A stretch of DNA of 64,000 nt from an uncultured Deferribacteraceae bacterium (GCA_947041165.1 CAMRCY010000001.1:1-64000); one strand, 5' to 3'; positions 367 to 19,191 are shown, counted from the stretch's first letter. Notes: generated by a model not told the origin, from the sequence alone. A program made the numbers and translations.

Positions 367-798
367 ATGAGAAAGATAGATAAGATAGTTCTACATTGTT
401 CAGCAAGTTCGTTTGGTGATGTGGACACAATAACATCATGGCATATAGAGCGTGGCTTTGAGACGATCGGTTATCATTACGTTATCTTAAACGGGTATCG
501 TAAAAATAAAAAATATTTAGAAGAAGATAACGGAGTACTTGAGATAGGTAGAGATATTGAGGTAATAGGTGCTCATGCTCGTGGAGATAATGCAACATCT
601 ATCGGTATCTGTTTAATCGGTAATAAAGAGTTTACTGATGAACAGTTTGCAGAGTTAAAGAGATTGTTGAATGAGTTAATGAAGCGTTACGACATTCCTT
701 TATCAAATGTGATTGGGCATTACGGAACAGCATCGGGTATATCTGGCGGTAAGACTTGTCCTAATTTTAATGTTGAGAATTTGAGAACAGAGCTGTGA
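367..798 (+). CDS. Phage-type N-acetylmuramoyl-L-alanine amidase (endolysin)
   Basis: 143-residue Amidase_2 (T7-lysozyme-like) enzyme that cuts the amide bond between MurNAc and the stem peptide of peptidoglycan. The zinc ligands appear as H10 (in VLHCSA), H118 (in IGHYG) and C131 (in KTCPNF). Y36 and K129 match the catalytic Tyr and Lys of T7 lysozyme. The length is that of a single-domain endolysin, with no cell-wall-binding domain and no signal peptide, so it would need a holin for export. The ATG follows a GGTGGAG Shine-Dalgarno sequence. It is the first gene of a four-gene lysis cassette and its stop overlaps the GTG start of the inner spanin. Confidence 0.93.
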   Translation: MRKIDKIVLHCSASSFGDVDTITSWHIERGFETIGYHYVILNGYRKNKKYLEEDNGVLEIGRDIEVIGAHARGDNATSIGICLIGNKEFTDEQFAELKRLLNELMKRYDIPLSNVIGHYGTASGISGGKTCPNFNVENLRTEL

Positions 799-1157
799 AC
801 TATAAATACATTGCACTGATTGTTATAGTTGCAACTATCGCCTCTTATGTTTTTTATTTACAAGTAACTAATATGAAACTTTCAAGCAAAGTAAGAGAGC
901 AAGAGATAGTAATTGCATCACTTGATATAACAGTTATCGACGCTACAAAAAAATTAGAAGAAGCTACAATTTTACAAGCTTTAAGTTATAAATTGTGTGA
1001 TGAAAGGTTAGCAAATAATAATGAGATTAATAAAATTAAAGATAAACAAAATGCAACAACATGCACAGATAAACCTCTTCGTGAGAACTTGGTTAATGAG
1101 CAATCCTCTAAAGATTCTATTGCTTTCATTAACGCTCTTCTGTCTGGGTTGCAGTAG
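795..1157 (+). CDS. Inner-membrane spanin (Rz-like)
   Basis: 120 residues with an N-terminal transmembrane helix (about residues 5-24) and a long charged, coiled-coil-prone periplasmic part, the usual i-spanin plan. Spanins link inner and outer membranes and fuse them in the last step of lysis. It starts at a GTG overlapping the TGA of the endolysin gene. The call rests on topology, position and the out-of-phase lipoprotein gene overlapping its 3' end, because spanins are poorly conserved in sequence. Confidence 0.8.
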   Translation: MNYKYIALIVIVATIASYVFYLQVTNMKLSSKVREQEIVIASLDITVIDATKKLEEATILQALSYKLCDERLANNNEINKIKDKQNATTCTDKPLRENLVNEQSSKDSIAFINALLSGLQ

Positions 1158-1359
1158 CAAGATTATCAAAATACCCTCTTTGATAGTTCCATCTTGCTCT
1201 GCTCCTATTAGACCAGATTTGTATCTTTTAGATAACAGTTCTCACATTGCATCAATGGAGAATATAGAAAACATATTAGTTACTATGTCAGAGTTGGTAA
1301 TATATATAAAACAACTTGAGATTGTAATTAACTGTCTCAAGCCAAATGGAGGAAAGTGA
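1096..1359 (+). CDS. Outer-membrane spanin lipoprotein (Rz1-like)
   Basis: The reading frame is open from further upstream, but the ATG at 1096 places a lipoprotein signal peptide exactly at the N terminus: MSNPLKILLLSLTLFCLGC, with lipidated C19. The mature protein is about 69 residues. Its first 62 bases lie inside the i-spanin gene in another frame, the overlapping Rz/Rz1 arrangement of lambda-like spanin pairs. The product would sit in the outer membrane and pair with the i-spanin across the periplasm. Its TGA overlaps the GTG of the next gene. Confidence 0.82.
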   Translation: MSNPLKILLLSLTLFCLGCSSKIIKIPSLIVPSCSAPIRPDLYLLDNSSHIASMENIENILVTMSELVIYIKQLEIVINCLKPNGGK

Positions 1360-1670
1360 TTTTGAATGGAATTGAAGTTCTTTTAAACAATGAAGCACTG
1401 CTAGTTATGTTAATAGCTCCGTCGATGCTAGTTGGAATCGTAATAATATTTATGGCTTTTAAGCTATTGTCAAAACTGGGTGATAAGTACCTTGTATCAC
1501 AAGATAAGCAGACAGCTGCATTTGAAAAAATTGTTGATGGTGTTGATTTTCTCATTAAAGTTGAAGAACAAAGAACACGTCGAGATGATGATATTAGAAT
1601 TTCATTAAGAGTACTAACAGATAGGATAGAGAAGGTTGTAGATATTAATAACAGCAATGCTAATAGATAG
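1356..1670 (+). CDS. Small membrane protein, holin candidate
   Basis: 104 residues with one clear transmembrane helix (about residues 14-36) and a charged, coiled-coil-like C-terminal half. Translation starts at a GTG overlapping the TGA of the o-spanin gene, so it is translationally coupled to the lysis cassette. Size, single helix and position suggest the holin that releases the endolysin, but holins have no common motif. It could instead be an anti-holin or an XhlA-like accessory. Confidence 0.5.
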   Translation: MILNGIEVLLNNEALLVMLIAPSMLVGIVIIFMAFKLLSKLGDKYLVSQDKQTAAFEKIVDGVDFLIKVEEQRTRRDDDIRISLRVLTDRIEKVVDINNSNANR

Positions 1671-1687
1671 TTTAGAGAAGGTTATAA

Positions 1688-1744
1688 ATGTTGATAACAA
1701 TAATAATAACAGTAGTTGTGATAATAATAATTAAAAAATTATAG
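1688..1744 (+). CDS. Possible 18-residue hydrophobic peptide
   Basis: A tiny ORF encodes MLITIIITVVVIIIIKKL, one hydrophobic helix ending in two lysines. An AGAAGG Shine-Dalgarno sequence lies 7 bases before the ATG. The position, directly after the holin candidate, would suit a micro-holin or regulator. The coding bases are mostly ATA/ATAAT simple sequence, so a chance ORF is a real possibility. Confidence 0.25.
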   Translation: MLITIIITVVVIIIIKKL

Positions 1745-1755
1745 GTGATCAGTAG

Positions 1756-2052
1756 ATGAATGCAAGAACAGAAACACTTATACATGCACGCCGTAAAGGT
1801 ATGGTGTTGGAGATATTAAAGCATGAGTTTCCAAATGGTGTAGATTTTTTAGTGCTACGTTGTGCTCTCTCAAATATCGGTCAAGACGTCACAGAGAAAG
1901 AGTTAAGTGGTTATTTAGTTTATCTTGAAAATTCTAAATACCTAAAGTTAAGACGGGATGATGATAAGAATATTTTATTAGCAGTGATAGATAACTTAGG
2001 GCTTGATCTAATTGATGGGCTTGGAACAGATAATGCGATTATGTTTGTTTAG
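1756..2052 (+). CDS. Winged-helix phage protein (VpaChn25_0724-like)
   Basis: 98 residues. The arrangement of an N-terminal helix (RRKGMVLEILK), a helix-turn-helix-like middle (LRCALSNIGQDVTEKEL) and a recognition-helix/wing region (YLENSKYLKLR) resembles small winged-helix proteins found between lysis and terminase genes in Mu-like prophages, as I recall the VpaChn25_0724 family. The biochemical role of that family is unknown. Here it is the last gene before a degenerate stretch and then the tail module, so it marks where head genes would be expected. No signal peptide or membrane segment. Confidence 0.5.
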   Translation: MNARTETLIHARRKGMVLEILKHEFPNGVDFLVLRCALSNIGQDVTEKELSGYLVYLENSKYLKLRRDDDKNILLAVIDNLGLDLIDGLGTDNAIMFV

Positions 2053-2443
2053 GAGTTTATGAAAGAGGTAAAGTTTATAATACCCCTAAGAAGTTAGGAT
2101 ATGTATATTAAAAGTTTTCATAAAATCGAGTGTTGTTTAAGAGTGTTTAGATCAAAAGTGATCAGTTTGCAGAAGATGATTAAAAGCAGTTTTAAGATAG
2201 GGTAGATGTTTAATCGCATGGATTGTAGATAAGGACATCTATCTGATAAGGGGGGTTGCTCCCCCGAGTAAAGAAGAGCTATTAAGTTTGTTTGATAGGT
2301 TACAGGTTTTAATATTTAGCAGTACGCAATTTATTTATCTGATATTAAACATATTTAATAGAAATTAAAATTTGATAAATTTATAGATTTAGAAAGTTTT
2401 ATTAAAAGTAGTTGTATGAAAAAAATAACTGTAAGGAGAGGTA
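2053..2443. other. Gene-poor gap with GC hairpin
   Basis: No convincing gene in these 391 bases. The one notable element is a perfect five-pair G/C stem (GGGGG at 2251-2255, CCCCC at 2261-2265) with a TTGCT loop. It is the only G-rich run in an AT-rich stretch and is not followed by a T-tract, so it is not a standard terminator. The gap lies where Mu-like phages carry terminase, portal and capsid genes. Confidence 0.5.
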
Positions 2444-2590
2444 ATGAGTGAGTCTAAAATAAGTAATATATTGGAAGAGTTACAAACTGAGATTACGTCA
2501 TTAAAAGAAGATATTGGATCATTAAAAGAAGATATTGAAAAGCTCAAGTATACGTTTATCTTATCATGCAGAAAAAAGGATTACATATAA
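2444..2590 (+). CDS. 48-residue coiled-coil protein
   Basis: ATG preceded by an AAGGAGAGG Shine-Dalgarno sequence. The product is strongly helical, with a duplicated heptad unit (SLKEDIGSLKEDIEKLK, residues 19-35), and would be a short soluble coiled coil. It lies alone between the winged-helix gene and the tail terminator gene. It may be a small structural or regulatory protein of the tail locus or a remnant of a longer gene. I do not recognise a family. Confidence 0.5.
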   Translation: MSESKISNILEELQTEITSLKEDIGSLKEDIEKLKYTFILSCRKKDYI

Positions 2591-2794
2591 AATGAAACAT
2601 GAGTTTGTTGAAAAAGTTGCAGGCAGTTGATCAGTACAATTAATATGATATCTAATATTGATATAAGAATATTGATGATGATGAAAGTAATTGTAGCGAA
2701 ACATAGATGTGTAGATAGATATAAGAAAGATAAAAAAGGAATTGAAAACATGATGAAAATTCAGATGACAGATTGTTTTTATAGGTACAAATAG
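2591..2794. other. Short gap before tail terminator gene
   Basis: 204 bases with no supported gene. Very short ORFs (13-14 codons) occur but have no coding evidence. Confidence 0.4.
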
Positions 2795-3328
2795 ATGATT
2801 AAACTTGTGAAAGAAACTATTACTGATGCGTTAAATAAATCAGGAATAACGAGAATTATTGATATAGATAATAAAGATATACTTACAGAAAAACCATATG
2901 CTGTATTTCAGTTTTTAGGAGAAACCTTTGAAAAAACAGGGTTTACCTTATCAGGTGAAGTGAAAGAAGGCGGGACTACGAAGGTTTCAAGCAAGTATAT
3001 ATCTAAGCTTTCGGTGAGTTGTAATATAGTTACACAAACAGAGAATGAACTTATATCCATCACCGAGAGCTTTATTAAAAATATACCCAGCAAACTTAGG
3101 GATAAAAATAATAATATAGTGTCCGTAACAATGGCATCATCAACATATAAATTAGCCTCAGGTCAATTTATAGGAACAGAGATAGTTGATACTGATCCAT
3201 ATGTTAGCAGAGTTATAAATATTGATTTTAACTACCATATAATTGAAAAACAGGGCACTAAGAATATGGAATTAAGAAGTCTAACAGACCCAAATTTAAA
3301 TAAGGAGATGATAATTATGTCTAAATAA
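2795..3328 (+). CDS. Tail terminator/completion protein (Mu gp37-like position)
   Basis: 177 residues, no signal peptide or TM segment. The pattern of an N-terminal helix (KLVKETITDAL), a PYAVFQFLGE strand and alternating strands that include KLSVSCNIVTQTENE and VINIDFNYHI resembles phage tail-terminator/minor tail proteins, which cap the tube after tape-measure-guided polymerisation. Its position immediately before the sheath gene matches Mu gp37 and related tails. No catalytic residues are expected. Family membership was inferred from fold-like pattern and synteny. Confidence 0.6.
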   Translation: MIKLVKETITDALNKSGITRIIDIDNKDILTEKPYAVFQFLGETFEKTGFTLSGEVKEGGTTKVSSKYISKLSVSCNIVTQTENELISITESFIKNIPSKLRDKNNNIVSVTMASSTYKLASGQFIGTEIVDTDPYVSRVINIDFNYHIIEKQGTKNMELRSLTDPNLNKEMIIMSK

Positions 3329-3381
3329 GTTAACTCGAATGATCAAACATTTGGCATTAGACATCAAAACTTGAAGATAGT

Positions 3382-3440
3382 TGTGACAAGTAGTCACAGT
3401 TACCACCGCGTTTTTGTATAACGTAAGATAAGTGGGTAAC
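3382..3440 (+). promoter_or_regulatory. Two adjacent hairpins upstream of the sheath gene
   Basis: The 187-base gap before the sheath gene contains TGTGAC/GTCACA (3382-3387 with 3393-3398, 5-base loop) followed directly by GTTACC/GGTAAC (3399-3404 with 3435-3440). Neither is followed by a T-run. They could form a structured 5' leader or processing site that sets the expression of sheath and tube, the most abundant tail proteins. Function is inferred only. Confidence 0.4.
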
Positions 3441-3515: not shown

Positions 3516-5006
3516 ATGAGTGATGTATTTGAATATATCGTTGATGGCACGTCAGGGCTAAGTGGCGGTACTACTGGATCAGTTTTAGTAGCAGGAACAT
3601 GTACGTTAGGTGTGCTTGGTAAAAGTTATATCTGTGGTAATCGTACAGATATCAGAACTATGTTAGGTACAGGAACATTAGTTGATAGATTAGAAGATAT
3701 CTTTGCACAAGGTGGAGCTAATCCTATCGTAATCGCAGTACCAATTGGTGATAAACCTGAGTTAGATAAAGATGGAAATGTTATACCTAAAACACCTGTA
3801 GATATTGAAGTTATCAAAGATGCCAAAAACATATCAACATTGGTTGTAAGTGCAACAGGAACAATGACGGTTGATGCTTCAGTAGTTATTAAAATAACAG
3901 AATCTGGAATTTTAAATAAAGGAAGATTTCAATATTCGTTAAATGGTGGAAAAACATTTTCAGCAGATATAACACTTCCGGTTGAGAGTGATTTTATACT
4001 TGAAGATACTGGTGTTACTATTAAGTTTCCAGTGGCAGTTATGTCTGATGTAAACAACCCAGATTTGACAAAATTATATAATAAAGGTGATAGTTATTCG
4101 ATGAACCTCGTAGCACCACTTGTAACTGTAGACCAGATTGGAAATTATCTTTTAGATGCTTTAGAACTGCATGATGTTGAATTTGTATACATTGCAGGAG
4201 CGTCAAATAGCACAGTTTGGAGTTACTTACAAGTTCTTGCAGATGCTCAATTTAAGTCACATAGACCAACATATTTTAAAGCTGAAGCTGCTATGCCTAC
4301 AAAAGGTGAGATATGTAATGATTGGGCTGTAAGTCTAGTCGAAGCAGGAAAATTAATGTCTGCTAGATTTGTTCAAGTAACTGCATCTTACGGTTATATC
4401 ACAACAGCTAGAGGATCGGTAAAATTATCAAATATTGCAGGACTTGAAGCTGGAAGAACTATGGCTATCCCTGTTTCAAGAGCAACAGGTAGAGTACGTG
4501 ATGGAGCAATAGCAGGATTGTCAGTTCCTGATGAGTACACTCCATCTATTCAAACAGTATTAGAAGGTGCTGGATTTCTTACAGTAAAATCTTATGCAGG
4601 ATTAAACGGTTTATATTTTGGTGAGTCGAAAACATTTGCACCTGCAACATCAGATTACAGATATCAAAATATTATAAGAGTAGTATTTAAAGGTTTACGT
4701 CTAGCAAGAGTTGCATCATTAGCATCAATGTATGATGAGTTAGGAGATCCGACTATACCTGCAGATATGACAGGAGCTATCGCATTAAAAGCTCAAATTT
4801 CTAATTCATTAGATAGTATGAAAGATGCGAAACCGAAAGAGCTAGTTGATTATCAAATTGTTATTCCTGAGGGACAAGATTTTGTTGCAAATGGAGTTGC
4901 AATCGAGATGACATTTATTGGTATTCCAATAATAAACAAAATCAAGATTTTTGCTAATTACACATTTGCGGGTTCATCATTTGATCCTCGTTTAAAAGAT
5001 GCTTAA
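3516..5006 (+). CDS. Contractile tail sheath protein (Mu gpL/DUF2586-like)
   Basis: 496 residues, the usual size for a Mu-type sheath. The N-terminal region (SVLVAGTCTLGVLGKSY, then DRLEDIFAQGGANPIVIAVPIGD at about residues 54-80) is characteristic of the DUF2586 sheath family. The C-terminal region (RYQNIIRVVFKGLRLARVASLASM and a terminal IPIINKIKIFANYTFAG segment) corresponds to the conserved sheath core that wraps the tube. Hundreds of copies assemble around the tube and contract to drive it through the target envelope. It identifies the tail as contractile (myovirus or R-type), not flexible. Confidence 0.93.
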   Translation: MSDVFEYIVDGTSGLSGGTTGSVLVAGTCTLGVLGKSYICGNRTDIRTMLGTGTLVDRLEDIFAQGGANPIVIAVPIGDKPELDKDGNVIPKTPVDIEVIKDAKNISTLVVSATGTMTVDASVVIKITESGILNKGRFQYSLNGGKTFSADITLPVESDFILEDTGVTIKFPVAVMSDVNNPDLTKLYNKGDSYSMNLVAPLVTVDQIGNYLLDALELHDVEFVYIAGASNSTVWSYLQVLADAQFKSHRPTYFKAEAAMPTKGEICNDWAVSLVEAGKLMSARFVQVTASYGYITTARGSVKLSNIAGLEAGRTMAIPVSRATGRVRDGAIAGLSVPDEYTPSIQTVLEGAGFLTVKSYAGLNGLYFGESKTFAPATSDYRYQNIIRVVFKGLRLARVASLASMYDELGDPTIPADMTGAIALKAQISNSLDSMKDAKPKELVDYQIVIPEGQDFVANGVAIEMTFIGIPIINKIKIFANYTFAGSSFDPRLKDA

Positions 5007-5096: not shown

Positions 5097-5522
5097 ATGA
5101 TTAATGGATCAAGATATGACTGGGAGTCGATTACGGCACTAGCACCAAACGGAATAATGTTTAACATCACAGAGATTAACTATAGTGATGAGCAAGAGAT
5201 AAAAGAAGTATACGGTAAAGGTTCTGTTCAAGCAGGATATGGCAGAGGAAATTATAAAGCAAGTGGTTCACTTAAAATATTACTTGATGAGTGGGAAAGA
5301 TTTGCAGCAACACTTGGTGACACTATATATGATCACGCTGTATTTCCTATTACAGTAAGTTATGCAGCAGAAGGGAAAACAGTTACAGACCTTTTACCAG
5401 CTATAAAAATCATTAAGGTTTCAACATCAAATGCACAAGGATCATCTGCGGCTGGTGAAAAGAGTATAGATTTTATGATAACAAAACCTATCGTTTACAA
5501 CGGTAAATCAGCAAAGGCATAG
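5097..5522 (+). CDS. Tail tube protein
   Basis: 141 residues, directly downstream of the sheath gene as in Mu-like and P2-like tails. The features NGSRYDWESI at the N terminus, KGSVQAGYGRGNYKASGSLKI in the middle and a final strand-rich KSIDFMITKPIVYNGK are typical of myoviral tube proteins (the DUF of Mu gpM-like tubes). The protein stacks as hexameric rings to form the rigid inner tube. A duplicated segment (ATGCTTAATCTTT) lies in the sheath-tube gap, and the ATG has a GGAG Shine-Dalgarno sequence. Confidence 0.8.
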   Translation: MINGSRYDWESITALAPNGIMFNITEINYSDEQEIKEVYGKGSVQAGYGRGNYKASGSLKILLDEWERFAATLGDTIYDHAVFPITVSYAAEGKTVTDLLPAIKIIKVSTSNAQGSSAAGEKSIDFMITKPIVYNGKSAKA

Positions 5523-5545: not shown

Positions 5546-5890
5546 ATGAAAGAAGAGTACGATATAAATACAGTTAGTGAATTGAGTAACACAGAAGAGA
5601 AGTCAGTATATAAAGGATTTTCTCATTCATTCTTAGATGAATTTTTAGAGAAAGATGTAACGATCTCTGCTCGCTTTAGAAAGCCTACAAAGGCTGAGTT
5701 TAACCTTATGCAATCTTCAGCTGTAAAAAGTCCTGAGGCTGCATCAAATAATCTCCTCATGAGCGTAGTACATAAAAGTGATAGAGATAAATTTCTAGCA
5801 GATACAGAAGAATACCCAGGTGTAATAGTTACTATCGCAACAGTGATATTAAAATCATCAGGTTTCTCTGAGAAGCTGGGAAAGAGTTAA
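5546..5890 (+). CDS. Tail assembly chaperone, zero-frame product
   Basis: 114 residues, lying between tube and tape-measure genes, the invariant position of tail assembly chaperones in long-tailed phages. The zero-frame product ends at TAA 5888-5890, four bases beyond a perfect GGGAAAG slippery heptamer. A minority of ribosomes should shift to -1 and make the longer form ending at 6051. The short form is the G-like protein that, with the long form, coats the tape measure during tail assembly. Low sequence conservation is normal for this family. Confidence 0.8.
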   Translation: MKEEYDINTVSELSNTEEKSVYKGFSHSFLDEFLEKDVTISARFRKPTKAEFNLMQSSAVKSPEAASNNLLMSVVHKSDRDKFLADTEEYPGVIVTIATVILKSSGFSEKLGKS

Positions 5891-6051
5891 CAGAGTTTGA
5901 AAAAGCAGATGCATTGGTTTCAATGTATCTGCACAAAACTCCAAGCAATAACCTTGAAAAATATGCTGTTGAAGTTGAACAAGCAAAATGGTTAGAAGAA
6001 AGATATTTTGATAAACAGATGTTTATTATGGGTAAATTGTTTGGTAGTTAG
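5546..6051 (+). CDS. Tail assembly chaperone, -1 frameshift fusion (G-GT type)
   Basis: After codon AAG (5882-5884) a -1 slip re-reads base 5884 and continues in an open frame for 55 more codons to TAG 6049-6051, giving a protein of about 168 residues. The extension has no Shine-Dalgarno sequence of its own and ends 19 bases before the tape-measure gene. This is the organisation of lambda gpG-gpGT and P2 gpE-E', where the extension binds tube protein. The frameshift is inferred from the slippery site plus conserved gene order. Confidence 0.75.
5878..5884 (+). promoter_or_regulatory. -1 programmed frameshift slippery site GGGAAAG
   Basis: The heptamer is in the correct phase (G GGA AAG in frame 0, GGG AAA G after slipping) and is identical to the lambda G/GT slippery sequence. 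It lies at the 3' end of the zero-frame gene, just before its stop. Confidence 0.8.
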
Positions 6052-6070: not shown

Positions 6071-7597
6071 ATGGAAATATTTAAAATGTTTGCAACATTC
6101 GGTTTAACTGATTCATTATCTGTACCACTTGCCAAGATGACTAGCAAGCTACAAGATTCTGGATTAGAGATAACAGGATTATCAAATCAGTTTATTTCAA
6201 TGAGTAATAAATTATTACCTGTTGCGGAGACCACTGATTTATTAACAAATGCATTTAGTTCATCAGCTACAATTGTGGATAAATTACAATCATCTGTAGC
6301 AAAGATATCTACTGTATTTAATAACGCTACAAATGGAACAGAGGGTTTTAGTAATAAAATTTTAGAGCTTGCAGGTTCTGCTCGTGAAGTTGCATTAAAT
6401 CTAGGTGCGAAATTAGTTAGCTCTATAACATCAAGTATCCCTGTAACGAAATTATTAGGAGATGTGATGTCTACAGTAGACAAAACATTGAAGTTTATAA
6501 AAACAGGTTTTAGTGATATGGGAAGTGTTGTTGATACGACAAAAACTATATTGAATAAGTTTGGTATTGATCTCACAAAAGTTGATATTATTCAGAAAGG
6601 TTTAGCATTCACACAGGGTGCAGGTATAGATGTTGTTAAAAAATTAAGTGAAGCCTTTTCTGGTACTGGTCCAACTGCTGAGTCTATGATAGGCGTTGTT
6701 AAAAGTATAGGCACATCAGTTTTAGAACTTGTAAAAACAAAGATACCGATAGATGGAATTGCATCTGATGTTACGTCATTTATATCAGGTATTGTTAAAG
6801 GTGGTTCAGATATTGGAAGCACACTTAAATCAGTGTTCACAAATGTTTCAAGCAGTGCAAGTGGTTTTGTTGGAAATATAATGCAAGCAGTTTCAAGTAT
6901 CAATATCGGTGATGTAATGAAAAAGATCGGTGGTTCAGATTTATTTGAGTCAGGTAAAAACATATTAACATCATTTGTAAACGGTATATCGTCAGTTGCA
7001 AGTTTACCAGGCAAAGTATTAGGTTCTGTGTTTGGATCGTTATCATCTACTATCAAAGGGCCTCAAGAGTTTTTGAGTAATGTTGTTGGAGGAATATCAT
7101 CTGCTATAAACACATTGCCTGCTAAAATCGGTGGTGCTATATCATCAGTTGCAAGTTTTGCAGGTAAGACACTAAACTCTGCTTTTAACAGTATCTCTTC
7201 AGTTATTAAAGCTCCTAAGGAGTTAATAGGCAAAGCGATAACTGGTGTGTCAGAAATCATTAAATCACCTCAAGAGTTTATGAAGTCACCTTTTAAAAGT
7301 ATAAAAAATATATTTATGCCTGATACAAATAAAGCGTTACAAGCGACTTCAATTGTTCCAAGCATTGCAAAAGGAATAGATGAAAGCAGTCCAAACTTAG
7401 TGAGTGCTACAGATCCTATTTTAGCAAATAATGGTGTGTCAACAGAGATAGGAGTGCAGAGAATGTCTGCTCAACCAAACGGTAAAGATTCTCAAAATGT
7501 AGTAATAAATATTGATAATTTAAATCTGCCATCTGTTGAAAATGTAGCATCATTTATTGATGAATTAAGATCATTAAAAATATCTTTAGGAGTGTAA
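6071..7597 (+). CDS. Tail tape measure protein (short)
   Basis: 508 residues of low-complexity, helix-rich sequence full of Ser, Val, Ile and Gly with repeated hydrophobic stretches (for example SSISVAS-like segments from residue 270 to 400), typical of tape measures. It lies directly after the frameshifted chaperone gene. At the roughly 1.5 Å per residue rule the tail would be about 75 nm, at the short end for myoviral tails. The C-terminal region (VVINIDNLNLPSVENVASFIDELRSL) resembles the conserved end of Mu-like tape measures. No peptidase or transglycosylase domain is visible. Confidence 0.82.
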   Translation: MEIFKMFATFGLTDSLSVPLAKMTSKLQDSGLEITGLSNQFISMSNKLLPVAETTDLLTNAFSSSATIVDKLQSSVAKISTVFNNATNGTEGFSNKILELAGSAREVALNLGAKLVSSITSSIPVTKLLGDVMSTVDKTLKFIKTGFSDMGSVVDTTKTILNKFGIDLTKVDIIQKGLAFTQGAGIDVVKKLSEAFSGTGPTAESMIGVVKSIGTSVLELVKTKIPIDGIASDVTSFISGIVKGGSDIGSTLKSVFTNVSSSASGFVGNIMQAVSSINIGDVMKKIGGSDLFESGKNILTSFVNGISSVASLPGKVLGSVFGSLSSTIKGPQEFLSNVVGGISSAINTLPAKIGGAISSVASFAGKTLNSAFNSISSVIKAPKELIGKAITGVSEIIKSPQEFMKSPFKSIKNIFMPDTNKALQATSIVPSIAKGIDESSPNLVSATDPILANNGVSTEIGVQRMSAQPNGKDSQNVVINIDNLNLPSVENVASFIDELRSLKISLGV

Positions 7598-7603: not shown

Positions 7604-8140
7604 ATGGCTTTACTTACAATTAATGATGGAATAGTAACTCTTGGTAGTACGTTAATCGATGCGGTTTTAATATCGTGTAATTTATCTACTAGTGTACGTT
7701 ATGACGCTGCAACAAAAGATTCAAGAAGTTCGTCAGTAAAAAGACCTATCGGTTTTAATGACTCTGAAATCACTATTGAGTTTGCATTATTAACTGACAA
7801 TATAAAGAGTTGTTACACGAGGTTATCAGCTATAAACAAGCTTTTTAAAGCAAGAGAAAATGGTGTGGCAAAGGTTTACAATATTAATAATAGACATCTA
7901 TTTGCTCGTGGCGTTAGGTCTGTATTTTTCGATAAAATAACATCATCTGAATCAAATACTGATGACACTATAAAAGTTGTCCTAACGTTTACAGAGCATA
8001 CTCAAGCAGATCACAACTTAGAGAATAAAGGTGCTAAGCTTCTGTCTGATATGATATCAACAATTAGTGCACCTCTAGAAAATGTTGACATGTTTTCAGA
8101 TATTAATCCTAATTCAGGCTCAACAAGTGGTGCTGTTTAA
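7604..8140 (+). CDS. Distal-tail/baseplate protein, Mu gp43-like position
   Basis: 178 residues, no signal or TM segment. Strand-rich, beginning with a short ring-forming type of N terminus (LLTINDGIVTLGSTLIDAVLISCNLSTSV). It lies between the tape measure and hub genes, where contractile tails encode the protein that connects the tube to the hub. No recognised catalytic motif. The last base of its stop is the first base of the hub ATG, showing translational coupling. The family was not recognised and the role is inferred from order. Confidence 0.55.
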   Translation: MALLTINDGIVTLGSTLIDAVLISCNLSTSVRYDAATKDSRSSSVKRPIGFNDSEITIEFALLTDNIKSCYTRLSAINKLFKARENGVAKVYNINNRHLFARGVRSVFFDKITSSESNTDDTIKVVLTFTEHTQADHNLENKGAKLLSDMISTISAPLENVDMFSDINPNSGSTSGAV

Positions 8141-8913
8141 TGAGTGATATAATTTGCAATATAAAGATAGGAAGTAATAGTTTAGTACGAGGAATTGAAT
8201 CGTTAATTATATCATCTGATATATCAACTCATGCAACAACTGCGAAGATAGAATTAACTTTAGAGAATGAGATGATAGCATCTGTGTTAAAAAAAGATGC
8301 ACGTATGATTATAGATTATGGAACGTCGGATAATAACAGAACAATCTCTATGGTTATCGAAGAGGCAAGTTATACAGTTGATAATAAGTTTAAAATATTT
8401 GCAATGACAGATGGCAGAAATCTTACGCTATCAAAAGTGAAAGAGTCATATAACGACGAGTCAAGTTCTGCAATTATCAAACGCTTAGTGTTATCGGCAT
8501 CGTTAGTTGTTGGGTCAGTTAAACTTGATGATATTATCATACCTCATATTTTATTTAATGATTTAACGATAAAACAAGCAATTGATAAAGTGTTGTCTAC
8601 AGTTCAAGAATCAACAGGAATAGATGTTATTTATTTTGTAGATAGTGATGGCAAGTTTATGATGATGCCTAAAGAAATAGAGTTATCAACTCCTAAAATG
8701 ATGCTTACAACAGGTATAAATATATTGACTCATATATCCAATCCAGAGGTTATAGGATCGTCTGTTTTAGAGACAGTTATTAATCCTAAATTAGAACAAA
8801 CAGACACAATTAAAATAGATGACACAAGGAAGAAAATAAATAAATTAGCTTCAGTAATTGCAATAGAGCATAGCATTATTAAAGGTATTGCTAGAAGCAA
8901 GGTATGGTATTGA
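8140..8913 (+). CDS. Baseplate hub protein (gp27/gpD-like)
   Basis: 257 residues. It follows the pattern of gp27/gpD-type hubs: an N-terminal strand domain that docks to the tube (ICNIKIGSNSL...SLIISSDIS), a helical insert (ESYNDESSSAIIKRLVLSAS) and a later domain with LTIKQAIDKVLSTVQESTGIDVIYFVDSDGKFMMMP, a motif common in hub proteins of Mu-like and P2-like tails. It forms a trimer carrying the spike. It is shorter than P2 gpD (about 390 residues). It precedes the spike gene by one base. Confidence 0.7.
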   Translation: MSDIICNIKIGSNSLVRGIESLIISSDISTHATTAKIELTLENEMIASVLKKDARMIIDYGTSDNNRTISMVIEEASYTVDNKFKIFAMTDGRNLTLSKVKESYNDESSSAIIKRLVLSASLVVGSVKLDDIIIPHILFNDLTIKQAIDKVLSTVQESTGIDVIYFVDSDGKFMMMPKEIELSTPKMMLTTGINILTHISNPEVIGSSVLETVINPKLEQTDTIKIDDTRKKINKLASVIAIEHSIIKGIARSKVWY

Positions 8914-8914
8914 T

Positions 8915-11489: not shown

Positions 11490-12086
11490 ATGCAATATTT
11501 TTATAAATATTTTTTTAAAGTTTTAAATTTCATACCACTTTATAAGAAATCTGCTTTATCACTTATTATTGAGGCGTTAGCTGAATATTTTGATAAAGCA
11601 AGAGAGGATATTATATATCTTCAAAATCAGTTCATTGTAAGTTTGGCGGATGATGAATATATTCCAGATTATGCACGTTCTCGAGGAATACTTCGTTCTA
11701 AATATGATTATAAAGATAAGAAAATAGCCAAAGAGTTTCGTCACAGAGTTGCTAATGCTTATACATGGAATTTGTTAGCAGGCAAACATAAAGGTGTTGA
11801 GAAAATATTATCAACATATGGTTTTAAAGGTTTTAGTATTAGTAACTATTGGAATATCAATAATGCCCGTTGGGCAGAGTTTGATGTTGTCTATGGTACT
11901 AATGAGCTTTTTGATGATGGGGCTGGACTTGCAGAGCTGGTTAATTATTATAAACCTGCAAGAAGTAAAATAAGACAGATACGTTTTCCAACTAGCATCA
12001 ATGCTATAAGTTACCAAGGATCATTTTTACGAGTACATCAAAGTATTATTTTAAGTAATTATGAAAAAGAGGAGCAAAGTTTATGA
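11490..12086 (+). CDS. Tail protein I-like (gpI/Mu gp48)
   Basis: 198 residues. The conserved part LIIEALAEYFDKAREDIIYLQNQFIVSLADDEYIPDYARSRGI and the later ANAYTWNLLAGKHKGVEKILSTYGF match the tail protein I family, which joins baseplate wedge to the tail fibre. It lies between gpJ-like and fibre genes as in P2 and Mu. Its stop overlaps the ATG of fibre 1 by four bases. Confidence 0.85.
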   Translation: MQYFYKYFFKVLNFIPLYKKSALSLIIEALAEYFDKAREDIIYLQNQFIVSLADDEYIPDYARSRGILRSKYDYKDKKIAKEFRHRVANAYTWNLLAGKHKGVEKILSTYGFKGFSISNYWNINNARWAEFDVVYGTNELFDDGAGLAELVNYYKPARSKIRQIRFPTSINAISYQGSFLRVHQSIILSNYEKEEQSL

Positions 12087-13285
12087 ACTTAAAATTAACA
12101 AAAAAAGCGATAGAAGAAAAAGATAAGCTAACTGCTAGAGAAATTTCATCAATCAATTTCTCTAAAATGGCAGTAGGCAGTGGGTTATATACGTCAGAAG
12201 AATTAGCAAATGAGATCACAGAGTTGAGAATGGTAGAAATCACAACTGAGATAGTTAATGTTTACCAAGAAATGGTTGATATTAAAAATGATGTACCAAA
12301 CATCGATGAAGAAACAGTGAAGAAAGAGAGTCAACTTTTCATCACATCAACATTTTTTAATAAGGATGTAGAGGAGAAGTTTGAAGTTAGAGAAGTTGGT
12401 ATTTATTTCATATCAAACGAAGATAAGCAAGAGTATTTATATGCATATTATATTGTAGCATCAACTGATACAGCAATAGCTATCGTGCAAGATAAATCTC
12501 TTCCACAATACATGCCGATATCTGTTAACACAAAACTATCTAATATTGATGAAGTAAATATTGCTGTTGTAAATGATATGCTAGTTGTTAATCAAGATGA
12601 GTTTAAAAGATATAAAGTAGATATTAAAAAACATATTGATGATGAAGATATAAGTATCAGAACATATGTTGATGAAGAAGATAGAAAGATTAAAACATCA
12701 ATAATTGAGCAAGATACAAGTATTCGAACATATATTAATGAACGAGATGCTATTGTTAAAACATATGTTGATGTAGAAGATGCAAAGATTGAAACTTTAG
12801 TAAACACAAAAGCAAACAGTAGTCATACTCACTCTTTATCATCAGGTTATCTTACTGGTGTTCTGCCAACCAGTAAAGGTGGAACAGGAAGAACAGATGG
12901 TGGTGCTAACGCATATGTTTATAGTAGCGCTAGTAATCCAACATATTTACTAGGAACAAGCTCTTCTAGTTCATACCCCACGCTATATAGGGTTAATGAA
13001 GATAGCTATATTAAACATATTAATATGCAATCATCTCAAGCGTATTCTAATCACGTAATTCACCAAGCTCCTTATAATGGATGGATAAGGGCGTATGTTC
13101 AGGGGAATTCTATGTCAGTGATTAAAATAGGTTCCCATCCAAGCTATATAAACGATAGCCTCGATTCAGCAATTGCATTTAGTTACAAGGGAGGAGGGTT
13201 TATATATGCTCCTATTCGAGCGGGTTACTATTTTAGGACAGAATGGTGCAATCTTGGAGTTAGATTATATAGGGAGGTTTCATAA
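12083..13285 (+). CDS. Tail fibre 1 (receptor-binding)
   Basis: 400 residues. The N-terminal part (residues 1 to about 185) is the baseplate-attachment domain shared with fibres 2-4. Then come coiled repeats around a DEEDRKIKT/YVDVED motif, a HTH iron-site-like motif (SSHTHSL) and a LPTSKGGTG segment typical of Phage_fiber_2-type shafts. The distal tip (about residues 270-400) is unique. Such tips decide which surface sugar or protein is recognised. The stop is immediately followed by its chaperone gene. Confidence 0.85.
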   Translation: MNLKLTKKAIEEKDKLTAREISSINFSKMAVGSGLYTSEELANEITELRMVEITTEIVNVYQEMVDIKNDVPNIDEETVKKESQLFITSTFFNKDVEEKFEVREVGIYFISNEDKQEYLYAYYIVASTDTAIAIVQDKSLPQYMPISVNTKLSNIDEVNIAVVNDMLVVNQDEFKRYKVDIKKHIDDEDISIRTYVDEEDRKIKTSIIEQDTSIRTYINERDAIVKTYVDVEDAKIETLVNTKANSSHTHSLSSGYLTGVLPTSKGGTGRTDGGANAYVYSSASNPTYLLGTSSSSSYPTLYRVNEDSYIKHINMQSSQAYSNHVIHQAPYNGWIRAYVQGNSMSVIKIGSHPSYINDSLDSAIAFSYKGGGFIYAPIRAGYYFRTEWCNLGVRLYREVS

Positions 13286-13675
13286 ATGTTTTTACCAGAA
13301 AAAATTGAAACGTATTTAGGTAGAGTAGTAGATTTTATTAATGAAGTTGAGTTGGAGAGCAAAAATCATTTCGATGATAACGGTGAGTTCACTCATTTTA
13401 CAGAGCATGTTGTTAAGTGGAATGCTACGGACAAACCACAGCCAACAGATGAACAGCTTGAGGCTATAACAGAATATGTTAATCCATATGCTAGTGCTGA
13501 AGTTAGAAGTAAAAGGGATCAATTAATATCAGAAACTGATTGGACAGAGCTAAATGATACTGTCGTGCCAAAGGCTACTAAAGCTAAGTATAAAGTGTAT
13601 AGACAAGCGTTAAGAGATATAACAAAACAGGCTGGTTTTCCTCATGATGTAGTGTTTCCAGAAAAGCCTGTTTAA
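13286..13675 (+). CDS. Tail fibre assembly chaperone, copy 1
   Basis: 129 residues. The C-terminal motif RSKRDQLISETDWTELND plus YRQALRDITKQAGFPHDVVFPEKP is the Phage_TAC/APC fibre-assembly chaperone signature. The first six residues differ from copy 2 (15168-15557); residues 7-129 are nearly identical, with a single seen change (HFDD/NFDD). Helps trimerise the fibre encoded just upstream; the gene abuts the fibre stop. Confidence 0.88.
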   Translation: MFLPEKIETYLGRVVDFINEVELESKNHFDDNGEFTHFTEHVVKWNATDKPQPTDEQLEAITEYVNPYASAEVRSKRDQLISETDWTELNDTVVPKATKAKYKVYRQALRDITKQAGFPHDVVFPEKPV

Positions 13676-13826: not shown

Positions 13827-15146
13827 ATGAATTTAAAATTAACAAAAAAAGCGATAGAAGAAAAAGATAAGCTAACAGCTAGAGAAATTTCATCAATCAA
13901 TTTCTCTAAAATGGCAGTAGGCAGTGGGTTATATACGTCAGAAGAATTAGCAAATGAGATCACAGAGTTAAGTACTGTAGAAATCACAACTGAGATAGTT
14001 AATGTGTATCAAGAAATGGTTGATATTAAAACTGATGTACCAAAGATCGCTGAAGAAACAGTTAAGAAAGAGAGCCAACTTTTCATCACATCAACATTTT
14101 TTAATAAGGATGTAGAGGAGAAATTTGAAGTTAGAGAAGTTGGTATTTACGCTATATCAAACGAAGATAAGCAAGAGTATTTATATGCATATTATATTGT
14201 AGCATCAACTGATACAGCAATAGCTATCGTGCAAGATAAATCTCTTCCACAATACATGCCGATATCTGTTAACACAAAACTATCTAATATTGATGAAGTA
14301 AATATTGCTGTTGTAAATGATATGCTAGTTGTTAATCAAGATGAGTTTAAAAGATATAAAGTAGATATTAAAAAACATATTGATGATGAAGATATAAGTA
14401 TCAGAACATATGTTGATACAGAAGATAGAAAGATTAAAACGTACATTGATGAACAAGATACGACTATTAGAAATACAAAATCTGATTTGAGTCATGGACA
14501 TAACTTAGCAGATGAAAATATAGATGGTATTCTACCAATATCTAAAGGTGGCACAGGAAATAATCAGTGCAGAGTATCCTCATTAAATGAGCACCATAAT
14601 GGCAACTACGGAATGGCTGAGTCACTCTTTTCCTTAGCGTTAGGTGATAACAGTAGAAGCACATCTACTTACTCAAGGAACTATAATAGACTTTACAGAT
14701 TAACAACAAATGCTACAACTGGTGCAAAAAGTTATAGTAACGATATACAAGTTTACAAAGCGACAACTTCAGATAATGCGAGTATATCAAATCAACTTAG
14801 ATCTGTTTATCACTACAGTCGTAGTAATTATATCTTAGGGTCATCATCTTCTAATGGTCTTGGACAATCTTATACTATGCCTCTACACAATTTCCAAACT
14901 AAGCCTGACTACAGTAATAGGACTGTTAGATCTCCACATACTAACTACACTGCAAGTAGAGCAGGTATCTTAATAGCTAGTTTAGCGTTTAATGGTGGGG
15001 TTGGACAAATATTAATCAATGGCACTGTTATTATTCAGTCACATTCTAATGGTGGTGGTGGAACATGGTTCTGGTTACCAGTTAGACAAGGTGATCGTTA
15101 TCAATTTGTTAATGCTTATGAAGGGTGGTTTGTCACTGACATATAA
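13827..15146 (+). CDS. Tail fibre 2 (receptor-binding)
   Basis: 439 residues. Residues 1-190 are almost identical to fibre 1, including the MNLKLTKKAIEEKDKLTARE start. Then come a GHNLADENIDGILPISKGGTGN shaft motif and a unique distal domain of about 180 residues, Ser/Tyr/Asn-rich, ending with a strand-rich block. The tip has no similarity that I can see to fibre 1. The shared base plus different tips suggests alternative host ranges. Confidence 0.85.
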   Translation: MNLKLTKKAIEEKDKLTAREISSINFSKMAVGSGLYTSEELANEITELSTVEITTEIVNVYQEMVDIKTDVPKIAEETVKKESQLFITSTFFNKDVEEKFEVREVGIYAISNEDKQEYLYAYYIVASTDTAIAIVQDKSLPQYMPISVNTKLSNIDEVNIAVVNDMLVVNQDEFKRYKVDIKKHIDDEDISIRTYVDTEDRKIKTYIDEQDTTIRNTKSDLSHGHNLADENIDGILPISKGGTGNNQCRVSSLNEHHNGNYGMAESLFSLALGDNSRSTSTYSRNYNRLYRLTTNATTGAKSYSNDIQVYKATTSDNASISNQLRSVYHYSRSNYILGSSSSNGLGQSYTMPLHNFQTKPDYSNRTVRSPHTNYTASRAGILIASLAFNGGVGQILINGTVIIQSHSNGGGGTWFWLPVRQGDRYQFVNAYEGWFVTDI

Positions 15147-15167
15147 ATACTAATAGGAGAGAATATT

Positions 15168-15557
15168 ATGGAACTATATAAAAAAATTGAAACGTATTTA
15201 GGTAGAGTAGTAGATTTTATTAATGAAGTCGAGTTAGAGAGCAAAAATAATTTCGATGATAACGGTGAGTTCACTCATTTTACAGAGCATGTTGTTAAGT
15301 GGAATGCTACGGACAAACCACAGCCAACAGATGAACAGCTTGAGGCTATAACAGAATATGTTAATCCATATGCTAGTGCTGAAGTTAGAAGTAAAAGGGA
15401 TCAATTAATATCAGAAACTGATTGGACAGAGCTAAATGATACTGTCGTGCCAAAGGCTACTAAAGCTAAGTATAAAGTGTATAGACAAGCGTTAAGAGAT
15501 ATAACAAAACAGGCTGGTTTTCCTCATGATGTAGTGTTTCCAGAAAAGCCTGTTTAA
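15168..15557 (+). CDS. Tail fibre assembly chaperone, copy 2
   Basis: 129 residues, nearly identical to the chaperone at 13286-13675 beyond residue 6 (initial MELYKK versus MFLPEK). Contains the same TDW and GFP-x-x-VVFPEKP motifs of fibre-assembly chaperones. It follows fibre 2 by 21 bases, after an AGGAGAG Shine-Dalgarno sequence. The close identity suggests a recent duplication of the fibre-chaperone cassette or ongoing recombination between copies. Confidence 0.88.
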   Translation: MELYKKIETYLGRVVDFINEVELESKNNFDDNGEFTHFTEHVVKWNATDKPQPTDEQLEAITEYVNPYASAEVRSKRDQLISETDWTELNDTVVPKATKAKYKVYRQALRDITKQAGFPHDVVFPEKPV

Positions 15558-15708: not shown

Positions 15709-17211
15709 ATGAATTTGAAATTAACAAAAAAAGCGATAGAAGAAAAAGATAAGCTAACAGCTGGAGAAATTTCATCAATCAACTTCTCTAAAATGGCATT
15801 AGGCAGTGGGTTGTATACGTCAGAAGAATTAGCAAATGAGATCACAGAGTTAAGTACGGTAAAAATCACAACAGATATAGCTGATGTGTATCAAGAAATG
15901 GTTGATATTAAAACTGATGTACCAAAGATCGCTGAAGAAACGGTTAAGAAAGAGAGCCAGTTTTTCATCACATCAACATTTTTTAATAAGGATGTAGAGG
16001 AGAAGTTTGAGGTTAGAGAAGTTGGTATTTATGCTATATCAAATAATGATGAGCAAGAGTATTTATATGCATATTATATTGTAGCATCGACAGATATAGC
16101 TATATCGATTATGCAAGACAAGTCTCTTCCACAATACACACCTGTATCAATTAATACAAAATTATCTAATATCGATCAGGTAAATATTACTGTCATAAAT
16201 GATATACTTGTGGTTCATGAAGATGAGTTTAAAAGATATAAAGTAGATATTAAAAAACATATTGATGATGAAGATATAAGTATCAGAACATATGTTGAAG
16301 AACAAGATACCGATATTCGAAATACCAAAGCTGATTTAATTCATGGACATAATTTAACAGATGAAAATATCACAGGTATCTTACCTATTACAAAAGGTGG
16401 CACAGGAAAAGATAACGGTGATGCAGAGTTCAATAACCTAAAAGTAAAGTCATTGCTTATAAATAACAAACCGATTTCAAGAGCTTGTGGTATGCCAAGC
16501 TATGCAACATCTGCGACACAATTATTTTCTGCAACTGGCTACACAAATAGAGGATTCTCTATACCAGAAGATGCTTGGTACAGATTTAATGTTAAAGGTG
16601 GTGGGGTATCGTCACATAGCACAGTAATGCCTTATGGTTTTTTTATTAGATATTTAGTTGCAGGTACATACTGCTATATAGGTGTTGGTGGAAGAGGTTC
16701 AGGTTACGGTGGTGGAGGGTCTACTACATTAAAGATAAATAATGAAGTTTTTGATATGCCAGGAAATGGATCAATGGGCGGTGGTGGTTCTGCTGGTGGT
16801 GGTGGCTATCATAGAGGTAATGGTGGTAATGGAGGATACGGTGGTAGTGGTGGTACATCAAGTAGTCTTGGAGGAAAGCCTGGTGGTATAGGTTTTCCAT
16901 TCGGCTCAGGCGGTGGAGATGGTCTTGATTCTTCAAGTGGCTCTGCTGGTGGTGGTGGTGCAGGTGGCGGTCTCTCTGGTGGTAGTAGTGCAGCCGGTAC
17001 TGGTGGTGGATTATATGGAGGTAATTTCCTTAGCGATATCTTCAGCGCTGGTTCTGGGGGGATTGGAGGTTTTGGTGTTGGTGCTGGTGGTATATCTGGT
17101 GGTGGTTTCGGTGGACATTTCCCAGCTGGTATGTCAATGAATGTTGACTTCTTAGGCTATACTCCAGGTAACACAGACGGCTACTGTCGCATATACAAAA
17201 TCAATTGGTAA
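15709..17211 (+). CDS. Tail fibre 3 with glycine-rich tip
   Basis: 500 residues. The first 185 are clearly homologous to fibres 1 and 2 with scattered changes. The shaft motif GHNLTDENITGILPITKGGTG follows. The tip (about residues 315-490) is very glycine-rich, with motifs such as GGGGSAGGGGYHRGNGGNGG separated by variable segments and ending GYCRIYKINW. Glycine-rich tips of this form occur in phage adhesins such as S16 gp38, where glycine strands pack as a polyglycine-II lattice and the loops bind the receptor. The same structure is inferred here, not shown. Confidence 0.82.
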   Translation: MNLKLTKKAIEEKDKLTAGEISSINFSKMALGSGLYTSEELANEITELSTVKITTDIADVYQEMVDIKTDVPKIAEETVKKESQFFITSTFFNKDVEEKFEVREVGIYAISNNDEQEYLYAYYIVASTDIAISIMQDKSLPQYTPVSINTKLSNIDQVNITVINDILVVHEDEFKRYKVDIKKHIDDEDISIRTYVEEQDTDIRNTKADLIHGHNLTDENITGILPITKGGTGKDNGDAEFNNLKVKSLLINNKPISRACGMPSYATSATQLFSATGYTNRGFSIPEDAWYRFNVKGGGVSSHSTVMPYGFFIRYLVAGTYCYIGVGGRGSGYGGGGSTTLKINNEVFDMPGNGSMGGGGSAGGGGYHRGNGGNGGYGGSGGTSSSLGGKPGGIGFPFGSGGGDGLDSSSGSAGGGGAGGGLSGGSSAAGTGGGLYGGNFLSDIFSAGSGGIGGFGVGAGGISGGGFGGHFPAGMSMNVDFLGYTPGNTDGYCRIYKINW

Positions 17212-17236
17212 AAAAAAATAAAGGAGAATATTAAAC

Positions 17237-17695
17237 ATGATAAAAGTAGAAAGTATAAATTTAAATTTTGATATAACTGTTAAGCATAAAGAAGAGGTAT
17301 ATATATCTGATAGCAGAGTAGTTGTAGGTTGGATGCATGATAATAAAATGTGTTATCATCTATACGATTTTACTAAGGCGCAAGAGCGTTTAAACACAAT
17401 TAAGTTAGATAAAGAACGCCTTGCAATCAACAATATTATAGATACAGATTGCACCGATTGTGAGGTTGGTGATGGAGATATAATATCTAATATAAGAGTT
17501 GATGAAGATAGAAATATCAATATCACCTTAGGCGTATTGACAGATAATTTAGATGAAGAGTTTATCGTAAATCCTATTCCAAATGATATGAATTTTAGTG
17601 AAATAATTGAAGTTGAATATCAAGTTTTTAAGATAAATATTAAAGAAGAGAAAGCATTTGCTAAAATGTTAAATTTAGTTAAAACAAAAAAATAG
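17237..17695 (+). CDS. Unknown protein, possible fibre-3 chaperone
   Basis: 152 residues, no signal or TM segment. It takes the place, just behind fibre 3, of the chaperone found behind fibres 1 and 2. Its sequence is unrelated to them except for similar size, acidic character and a central helix (FTKAQERLNTIKLDKERLAINNIID). A different tip may need a different chaperone. The C terminus is lysine-rich. The ATG has an AAGGAG Shine-Dalgarno sequence. The family was not recognised. Confidence 0.45.
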   Translation: MIKVESINLNFDITVKHKEEVYISDSRVVVGWMHDNKMCYHLYDFTKAQERLNTIKLDKERLAINNIIDTDCTDCEVGDGDIISNIRVDEDRNINITLGVLTDNLDEEFIVNPIPNDMNFSEIIEVEYQVFKINIKEEKAFAKMLNLVKTKK

Positions 17696-17858
17696 TTTTC
17701 AAATGTTTATTATTTTGTGCATAGAGTAGTCAAAGAATTAAAAAGATATACCTCTATTATATAGATATTTACTTTCTGTTTAATGGTTATAAGGTTACAT
17801 GATACACAATTTTAAATATGATTCTAAAATATCAACATATATGTTTCTGGTTTGATAC

Positions 17859-17876
17859 CTTGAAACGAGTTTCAAG
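17859..17876 (+). promoter_or_regulatory. Palindrome upstream of fibre 4
   Basis: CTTGAAAC and GTTTCAAG are a perfect 8-bp inverted repeat with a GA centre, 43 bases before the fibre 4 start. The place is analogous to the palindromes before fibres 2 and 3, but the sequence differs. Possible operator or short hairpin; no T-tract follows. Confidence 0.35.
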
Positions 17877-17919
17877 TATAGTAACAATTAAATAAGTAAA
17901 ACCATAAGGGGTAATGTTT

Positions 17920-19191
17920 ATGAATATAAAATTAACAAAAAAAGCAGAAGAAGAGCAGTTAAAGTTAATAGCTAAAGAAATCAAATCAATTGAATTTTCT
18001 TCAATGTCTATCAATAATGGAATAAAAGTATCTGAAAAGTTAGGTGATGTTGTAGTAGAGAGTGAACGACAAGAACTTAAGGTTGCTATGAATCCATCAA
18101 CAGTTGAAATGACAGGCGATCTTTCTCAACTTGTACTATCAGCGACATTTCAAAATAGCGATGTTATCACTTCATTTTCAGTTAGAGAAGTTAATATTTA
18201 TGCTATAGGGAATGATGATAAAAAAGAGTATCTATACGCATATTATACGGTAGGTCAAGATGATCTAGCTATAGCTATAGTACAAGACAAATCAAAACCT
18301 CAATATATTCCAATATCAGTCAATATAAGTTTATCTAATATTGATGAAGTTAATATATCGGTTACCGATGACATATTAATTGTTAATCATGAAGAGTTTA
18401 CAATATATAAAAAAGCAATTCGAGATGAATTAGATGGCATGGCATTTACGCCTACATTGGACACACCTAAAACATCATTATTTAATATAGCAAGTTATAG
18501 TAACAAAATGCAAACACTTGAAAGAGGTTGGTACTATCTTGAGATGAGAGGTGGTGGTTGTAATGGTAATGGAGTTTCAAGAGGTGGTGCTAGAGGCTAT
18601 TCGATGTTTTATTTAAATTCTCCTAGCGTAGGATATTTTGGTTCAGGCGCATCAGGACAACATAATCGTTTATCAGGCGCTAATAGTTATAGTGGTGGTG
18701 GTGGATCAAGTTCTGCATTGGTTGCAGGCGTTCCATATAACTGTGGAGGAGCAGGAACTTTTGCTATTGATATTAATGCGCATCACGGTGGAGGCGGAGG
18801 TTCATGGGGTGCAGGTGGAAATGTTAAAGGCACAAGTGGTCCTGGATATGGTGGAAACGGTGGTTACTTTGGTATATCAGGCAGTATTAATATGGGTGGA
18901 AGTCCTTCAACTATTTATTCAGATATTTATAGTATAGGTGGCAATGGAGCTTATGGAGCAGGTGGAGCAGGTGGAGGTTCAGTTGGTATGGTGTGGAGTG
19001 ATAGCAATACAGATAGATTTACTTTAGGAGGCATCTCAGCAGTGAACACATCTAAATATGCTACAGGTGGCAGAGGTGGCGGTTATACTGTTGATGGAAA
19101 ATTAACTAATCCGACATGTTCTTCTAATATGGTTGCTTTACCTGAGGAAACTGGCGAAGGCTATATAAAACTTTATAAGTATAATGTATAA
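17920..19191 (+). CDS. Tail fibre 4 with glycine-rich tip
   Basis: 423 residues from ATG 17920. That start gives the same MN-x-KLTKKA N terminus as the other fibres and sits 8 bases from the AAGGGG site; the ATG at 17914 is too close to it. The base domain is a diverged relative of fibres 1-3. The shaft is shortened, with no GGTG motif. The tip is glycine-rich (GGGGSSSALVAGVPYNCGGAG, GGGGGSWGAGGNVKG) and ends GEGYIKLYKYNV, like fibre 3. No chaperone gene follows. Confidence 0.82.
   Translation: MNIKLTKKAEEEQLKLIAKEIKSIEFSSMSINNGIKVSEKLGDVVVESERQELKVAMNPSTVEMTGDLSQLVLSATFQNSDVITSFSVREVNIYAIGNDDKKEYLYAYYTVGQDDLAIAIVQDKSKPQYIPISVNISLSNIDEVNISVTDDILIVNHEEFTIYKKAIRDELDGMAFTPTLDTPKTSLFNIASYSNKMQTLERGWYYLEMRGGGCNGNGVSRGGARGYSMFYLNSPSVGYFGSGASGQHNRLSGANSYSGGGGSSSALVAGVPYNCGGAGTFAIDINAHHGGGGGSWGAGGNVKGTSGPGYGGNGGYFGISGSINMGGSPSTIYSDIYSIGGNGAYGAGGAGGGSVGMVWSDSNTDRFTLGGISAVNTSKYATGGRGGGYTVDGKLTNPTCSSNMVALPEETGEGYIKLYKYNV

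Follow-up and report, generated by a model that had tools for sequence, protein, structure and literature searches.

The first 64 kb of contig C1 from an uncultured Deferribacteraceae bacterium (in the following, the window) carries much of a locus for what seems to be a protein weapon of phage origin: a contractile tail with lysis genes and without a head, in a gut bacterium of the Deferribacterota. The product of the locus is very probably an R-type tailocin, whose headless contractile tail goes back to a Mu-like phage of this phylum. The genome to which the window belongs (G000) is a draft of 2.14 Mb in 70 contigs. It was compared with a relative from a second species of the same genus (G003), whose tail sheath is 81% identical to that of G000, and with an outgroup of sister-genus genomes including G006, G007 and G008; genome searches were run family by family. 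The full locus comprises ≈26 kb, from about C10:59,525 on another contig, through an (AACT)n repeat, to about position 19,541 of the window. The initial annotation of the window had described positions 367–19,191 as a headless Mu-like contractile tail locus and probable R-type tailocin. This description is supported by the complete tail and lysis set and by a continuous G003 contig on which the locus has no head gene. The interval was correct for the tail and lysis part, but left out the regulatory and transposition half, so that the Mu early module (MuA, MuB, Mor and the repressor) and the Mu-type ends had been overlooked.

Absence of the packaging and head genes

No terminase, portal, protease or capsid gene was found between the lysis and tail genes of the window locus (Table 1). 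Because contig C1 begins at base 1 of the window, within an (AACT)n array, the window alone is unable to show that head genes are absent, and judging their absence from it was rejected. In G003, the whole locus lies on a single 54.8-kb contig, starting beside a host membrane gene. The genes on its minus strand are, in order, those for Mor, GemA, Gam, MuB, MuA, a 336-aa open reading frame (ORF), a winged-helix protein and a small ORF, and the plus strand carries a CI-like S24 repressor, (AACT)13, the amidase, the other lysis genes, the tail, the fibres and the type IV secretion gene TraF. This continuous contig has no terminase, portal, protease or capsid gene in the locus. The corresponding early genes of G000, encoding a MuA homologue (87%), Mor, MuB, the 336-aa ORF, the winged-helix protein and the repressor, were found in the end region of contig C10, which finishes in (AACT)n in the orientation matching the start of C1. 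The G000 assembly has no more than three runs of at least nine AACT units: at the start of C1, at the end of C10 and on C4. Neither the C10 nor the C1 contig end has head genes. The search to the left of base 1 and elsewhere for head genes, which the initial annotation had set beforehand as the check on its reading, thus found none by way of C10 and the G003 contig.

Head genes were also sought elsewhere in the genomes. The terminase family phrog_2, which finds the terminases of the sister-genus prophages described below, had matches in five of the six genomes searched, the whole G003 assembly being the one with no match. The sole phrog_2 terminase in G000 is on contig C25, in an unrelated second prophage (L053 5782–17715), whose portal-like, capsid-like and other genes are podovirus-like by eye. 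Phage_portal_3 matched sister genomes, but neither G000 nor G003; Portal_Mu had no match in any genome searched and is hence uninformative.

Three intact Mu-like prophages of 37–38 kb each were identified in the sister genus, at G006:C12:17430-55324, G007:C6:26843-63898 and G008:C1:33575-70332, and a fourth, on G007:C14, has the early operon in common with them and its own head genes. Like the locus, the sister prophages have a homologous early operon (MuA 41–49% identical), a divergent repressor, lysis genes, a phrog_436 gene, the end motif and the same gene order. In the three intact prophages the phrog_436 homologue is followed by terminase, portal, F-like protein, protease, decoration and capsid genes, ≈11 kb in all, which the locus lacks. 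In each of the three, the homologue adjoins the terminase genes, which bears out the earlier suggestion that the winged-helix protein marks the border between lysis and terminase genes. Since the sister prophages hold the packaging and head block exactly between this lysis-border gene and the point where the tail terminator of the locus begins, only that block is missing, and the loss is confined to the head as had been proposed. The sheath and most tail proteins of the sister prophages belong to another family, with only the wedge and a Tfa-type chaperone matching the locus, so that removing the head from one of these prophages would not yield the locus. The locus shares their early and lysis lineage in combination with a different tail.

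The locus has its own lysis cassette, consisting of an amidase assigned by hidden Markov model and a spanin-like pair and holin-like ORF assigned by position or homology to the sister lysis genes. In both species the (AACT)n array separates the repressor from the lysis operon, which it could make phase-variable. It is one of the long perfect tetra- and pentanucleotide arrays (AACT, TAATC, AAACT and ATAC) that were noted in intergenic DNA, several of them at contig ends (window 1–54 and 124–169; L004 1–60, 751–800 and 9925–9977).

The tail module and its conservation

The tail set is complete, including terminator, sheath, tube, chaperone, tape measure, hub, spike, wedge and fibre genes; the seven components from sheath to wedge, reported earlier as intact, were all found so at the positions in Table 1. 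No Pfam family matched the gene at 2795. An AlphaFold model of its product, built from two sequences with a mean pLDDT (predicted local distance difference test) of 64, matched tail terminators and collars, and the structural genes therefore resume exactly at the border between head and tail. At the end of the chaperone gene, the heptamer GGGAAAG lies in the correct frame and the -1 frame is open to 6051. Phage lambda uses the same slippery heptamer to make its G and GT proteins. The heptamer and its surroundings are conserved between G000 and G003, and such retention of a programmed frameshift in two species is an argument that tail assembly still takes place. No sequence relative of the sheath was found in the PDB. 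Neither the sheath nor a single MuA matched any of the viral contigs, and an alignment of MuA sequences against viral contigs gave 45 loci, none of which had the tail proteins of the locus in the surrounding DNA examined.

G000 has four fibre genes and G003 has three. The 5' DNA of fibre genes 1 and 2 is 95–98% identical and their chaperone genes are 99% identical over 300 bases, while the C-terminal halves of the fibres differ. The second fibre cassette is thus a duplicate of the first in which the receptor-binding part is new, a pattern that a shift in target range would be expected to produce.

All locus genes compared between G000 and G003 were open in both, with ratios of nonsynonymous to synonymous divergence (dN/dS) of 0.06–0.40: 0.13 for MuA, 0.115 for MuB, 0.06 for Mor, 0.15 for the repressor, 0.08 for the tube, 0.29 for the sheath and 0.19–0.32 for the fibres. 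Synonymous divergence (dS) was 0.27–0.79 within the locus and 0.63–0.76 in the neighbouring TraF and VirB4 genes, and this similarity does not suggest recent transfer. The support for vertical descent comes only from the similar dS of TraF and VirB4, the core-gene controls, hybrid cluster protein and DinB, having no match in G003. The dN/dS values, the open frames in two species and the retained frameshift site suggest that the locus has been maintained as a unit rather than decaying.

By analogy with phage biology, DNA damage would lead to SOS-dependent self-cleavage of the CI-like repressor, which has a helix-turn-helix and an S24 peptidase domain, and thereby lift the repression of the divergent early operon, after which Mor would activate the lysis and tail operon. 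The terminator, sheath, tube, tape measure and baseplate proteins would assemble into a closed tail fitted with at least one of the several fibres, and the holin, amidase and spanins would lyse the producer and release the particles. These are predicted to bind related bacteria and to kill them by puncturing the membrane.

Table 1. Coordinates of the locus features within the window.
Feature	Position	Strand	Basis
(AACT)n array at contig end	1..54		Opposite the (AACT)n end of C10; array spanned in G003
Endolysin, N-acetylmuramoyl-L-alanine amidase	367..798	+	Amidase_2 64.5 bits; phrog_822
Spanin-like (Rz/Rz1) pair, overlapping ORFs 795-1157 and 1021-1359	795..1359	+	Suggested by position and nesting
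Holin-like membrane protein	1356..1670	+	Suggested by homologue among sister-prophage lysis genes
Winged-helix gene, lysis-terminase border	1756..2052	+	phrog_436, E 4e-9
Head-deletion scar, 742 bp, short ORFs only	2053..2794	+	Sister prophages have ~11 kb of packaging/head genes here
Tail terminator/collar protein	2795..3328	+	AlphaFold model; Foldseek matches to T5, T4 and lambda terminators and to pyocin R2 and diffocin collars
Tail sheath	3516..5006	+	DUF2586 208 bits; phrog_907 (PHROG tail sheath)
Tail tube	5097..5522	+	phrog_4579 tail protein; position downstream of sheath
Tail assembly chaperone (G-type)	5546..5890	+	DUF6848; phrog_20303
Slippery heptamer GGGAAAG (5878-5884) and -1 frame (GT-type extension)	5878..6051	+	Sequence kept in G003
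Tape measure	6071..7597	+	phrog_58 and others
Baseplate/hub proteins, two genes	7604..8913	+	phrog_1398, phrog_5233, phrog_400
Baseplate spike (gpV-like)	8888..9481	+	Phage_base_V 25.5 bits (cut-off 23.8)
gp25-like sheath initiator	9685..10131	+	PF10934 and PF04965 below cut-off; several PHROG baseplate families
Baseplate wedge gpJ	10136..11467	+	Baseplate_J 111 bits
gpI-like baseplate protein	11490..12086	+	Tail_P2_I 29.9 bits
Fibre 1 and Tfa-like chaperone	12083..13675	+	
Fibre 2 and chaperone; duplicate of cassette 1 with divergent C-terminal half, not in G003	13827..15557	+	
Fibre 3 (C-terminus glycine-rich) and companion gene	15709..17695	+	
Fibre 4 (C-terminus glycine-rich)	17914..19191	+	
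Mu-type end, tail side: TTAAAATGGTTTTAA palindrome and paired TTATC(A/T)CA sites	19458..19541	+	End motif just before 19535

Transposition module, element ends and alternative explanations

MuA and MuB were assigned by their matches to phrog_310 (E 3e-52) and phrog_296 (E 5e-36), respectively. The MuA residues D141, D248 and E284 are invariant across six sequences and, judging from their spacing and motifs, probably form the DDE triad. The three intact sister prophages have 5-bp target duplications (GTTAT, TGTAT and TGTAT) outside ends of the sequence TTATCTC(A/G)CCCC. As on the tail side in the window, a sister-type end motif stands beside the TTAAAATGGTTTTAA palindrome at the matching place in G003, and a variant of the motif lies beyond Mor in G000, at C10:59525. 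A spaced pattern matched these three ends and six sister ends, and none in the other loci scanned or in 2.66 Mb of resampled sequence; a fixed-spacing matrix had missed the window's end owing to a one-base change in spacing. The Mor-side end of G000 is the weaker call because the pattern was loosened after that end had been seen. G003 has a tail-side end and no recognisable Mor-side end, and no target duplication was visible by inspection at the G000 locus, unlike in the three sister prophages. The right flank (TraF) is common to G000 and G003 and the left flanks differ. The element gives the impression of an established insertion, not a recent one.

In G000, a Kiwa defence pair (KwaB, E 5e-90; KwaA, E 8e-58; L008 5626–7208, corresponding to C10:57625–59207) immediately adjoins the Mor-side end on its outer side; the pair is not at the matching place in G003. 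The tail-side end is adjoined at 19658–33889 by type IV secretion genes (TraF, a transglycosylase and VirB4/5/6/8/9/10/11-like genes). These were considered as a part of the element and rejected, since VirB4 is also found in G001, G005 and G007, in which no relative of the sheath was found, and since the end motif precedes the secretion genes. In G005, the homologous secretion genes have a probable relaxase, coupling protein and topoisomerase next to them, an arrangement resembling an integrative and conjugative element (ICE).

Several points weigh against the tailocin reading. The absence of terminases was judged from draft assemblies (96–99% complete), and the join between C10 and C1, suggested by the repeat and by synteny with G003, crosses an assembly gap. 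The tailocin particles, their induction and the killing are predictions from the gene content. Furthermore, MuA, MuB and transposon ends have been kept, which a plain bacteriocin does not need. Their retention might reflect a regulatory role, an increase in copy number or residual mobility, or there may not have been enough time to lose them, although the dN/dS values weaken this last explanation. It is also conceivable, though we think it improbable, that selection maintains MuA and MuB for a replicative transposition by which the headless unit is copied or moved, for instance to raise its copy number at induction before lysis, or to hop onto the adjacent type IV secretion or ICE-like region and thereby spread between cells without a capsid.

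Among explanations other than a tailocin, it is quite unlikely that the locus is a defective, functionless prophage in decay after a chance loss of its head. Some loss has indeed occurred: between Mor and MuB on C10 of G000 (L008 8091–8202) there is a clean absence of Gam and GemA, which both G003 and the sister prophages have, the Mor-side end has been lost in G003, and no target duplication was seen. However, the headless locus is shared by two species, in which all the compared genes are open, dN/dS is 0.06–0.40 and the frameshift signal is conserved. Even less probable is a tail-only mobile element or satellite that uses the heads of a helper phage and still transposes by means of MuA and MuB. 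In its favour, both proteins are intact and under purifying selection, both end motifs are present in G000, and intact Mu-like phages exist in the sister genus. The phrog_2 and Phage_portal_3 negatives speak against it: no phrog_2 terminase is present in G003, and the sole one in G000 is in the podovirus-like prophage. Moreover, there is one copy of MuA per genome, the right flank is the same in both species, and one end has been lost in G003. An extracellular contractile injection system directed at eukaryotic host cells instead of bacteria can be largely dismissed, for although relatives of the organism inhabit animal guts and the glycine-rich fibre ends have no assigned target, the fibres of the locus are of phage type and have Tfa chaperones, a lysis cassette is present, and no AAA ATPase or cargo gene of the Afp/PVC/MAC type was found in it, MuB being its sole AAA protein.

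Elsewhere in the window, a type I restriction-modification operon (HsdM, HsdS and HsdR) occupies 51212–58490, with two membrane-protein-like ORFs between HsdS and HsdR (53987–55467). Two adjacent minus-strand ORFs of 319 and 317 aa at 36401–38303 have near-identical C-terminal parts and N-terminal repeats rich in Asn and Ser, and gave no PADLOC match. A 164-bp unit is present in two tandem copies (93% matches) at 43694–44013, downstream of a small ORF.

Comparison with known tailocins

Pyocin R2 and diffocin have the particle plan predicted for the locus, and their collars match the terminator model. They descend from phage ancestors other than that of the locus, and we know of no transposition module in either. 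The best match to the sheath among annotated phages was in the Faecalibacterium phage FP_Mushu (29% identity over 68% of the query), a 36.6-kb phage that is only a distant relative.

The tailocin BceTMilo of Burkholderia cenocepacia is a P2/KL3-like R-type tailocin with RecA-dependent induction (PMC5411513). Like the locus, it combines a headless contractile tail, lysis genes and a CI-like repressor, and its head block is gone exactly at the border between head and tail (PMC5411513). BceTMilo retains an integration gene, encoding a tyrosine integrase, as the locus retains transposition genes; the two differ in that BceTMilo is derived from P2/KL3 and has an integrase and Ogr, whereas the locus has MuA, MuB and Mor, Mu-type ends and a DUF2586 sheath (PMC5411513). 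The R-type syringacin of Pseudomonas syringae, situated at the trpD/trpE site (PMC6331570), is called Mu-derived in a report that cites Hockett 2015 (PMC12090994). On that account, it too is a Mu-like contractile tail that was co-opted independently and lost its head, in a different phylum (PMC12090994). In the literature searched, whose coverage does not include the primary P. syringae paper, we found neither a tailocin combined with a Mu module for transposition and regulation nor a report of a tailocin from the Deferribacterota.

The locus thus places a probable tailocin in the Deferribacterota. According to a 2023 review of contractile injection systems, how prophages evolve into such particles is still little known (PMC10598620). 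The intact prophages of the sister genus, which are of the same early and lysis lineage, and the headless form in two species provide a before-and-after comparison, and pose a testable question: which phage functions does a domesticated tail keep, and why is the transposase among them? Loss of the head block with retention of an integration gene and, as reported for the syringacin, a Mu-derived R-type tailocin are each already known (PMC5411513, PMC12090994); the unusual feature of the locus is the persistence of MuA, MuB and at least one transposon end without the head.

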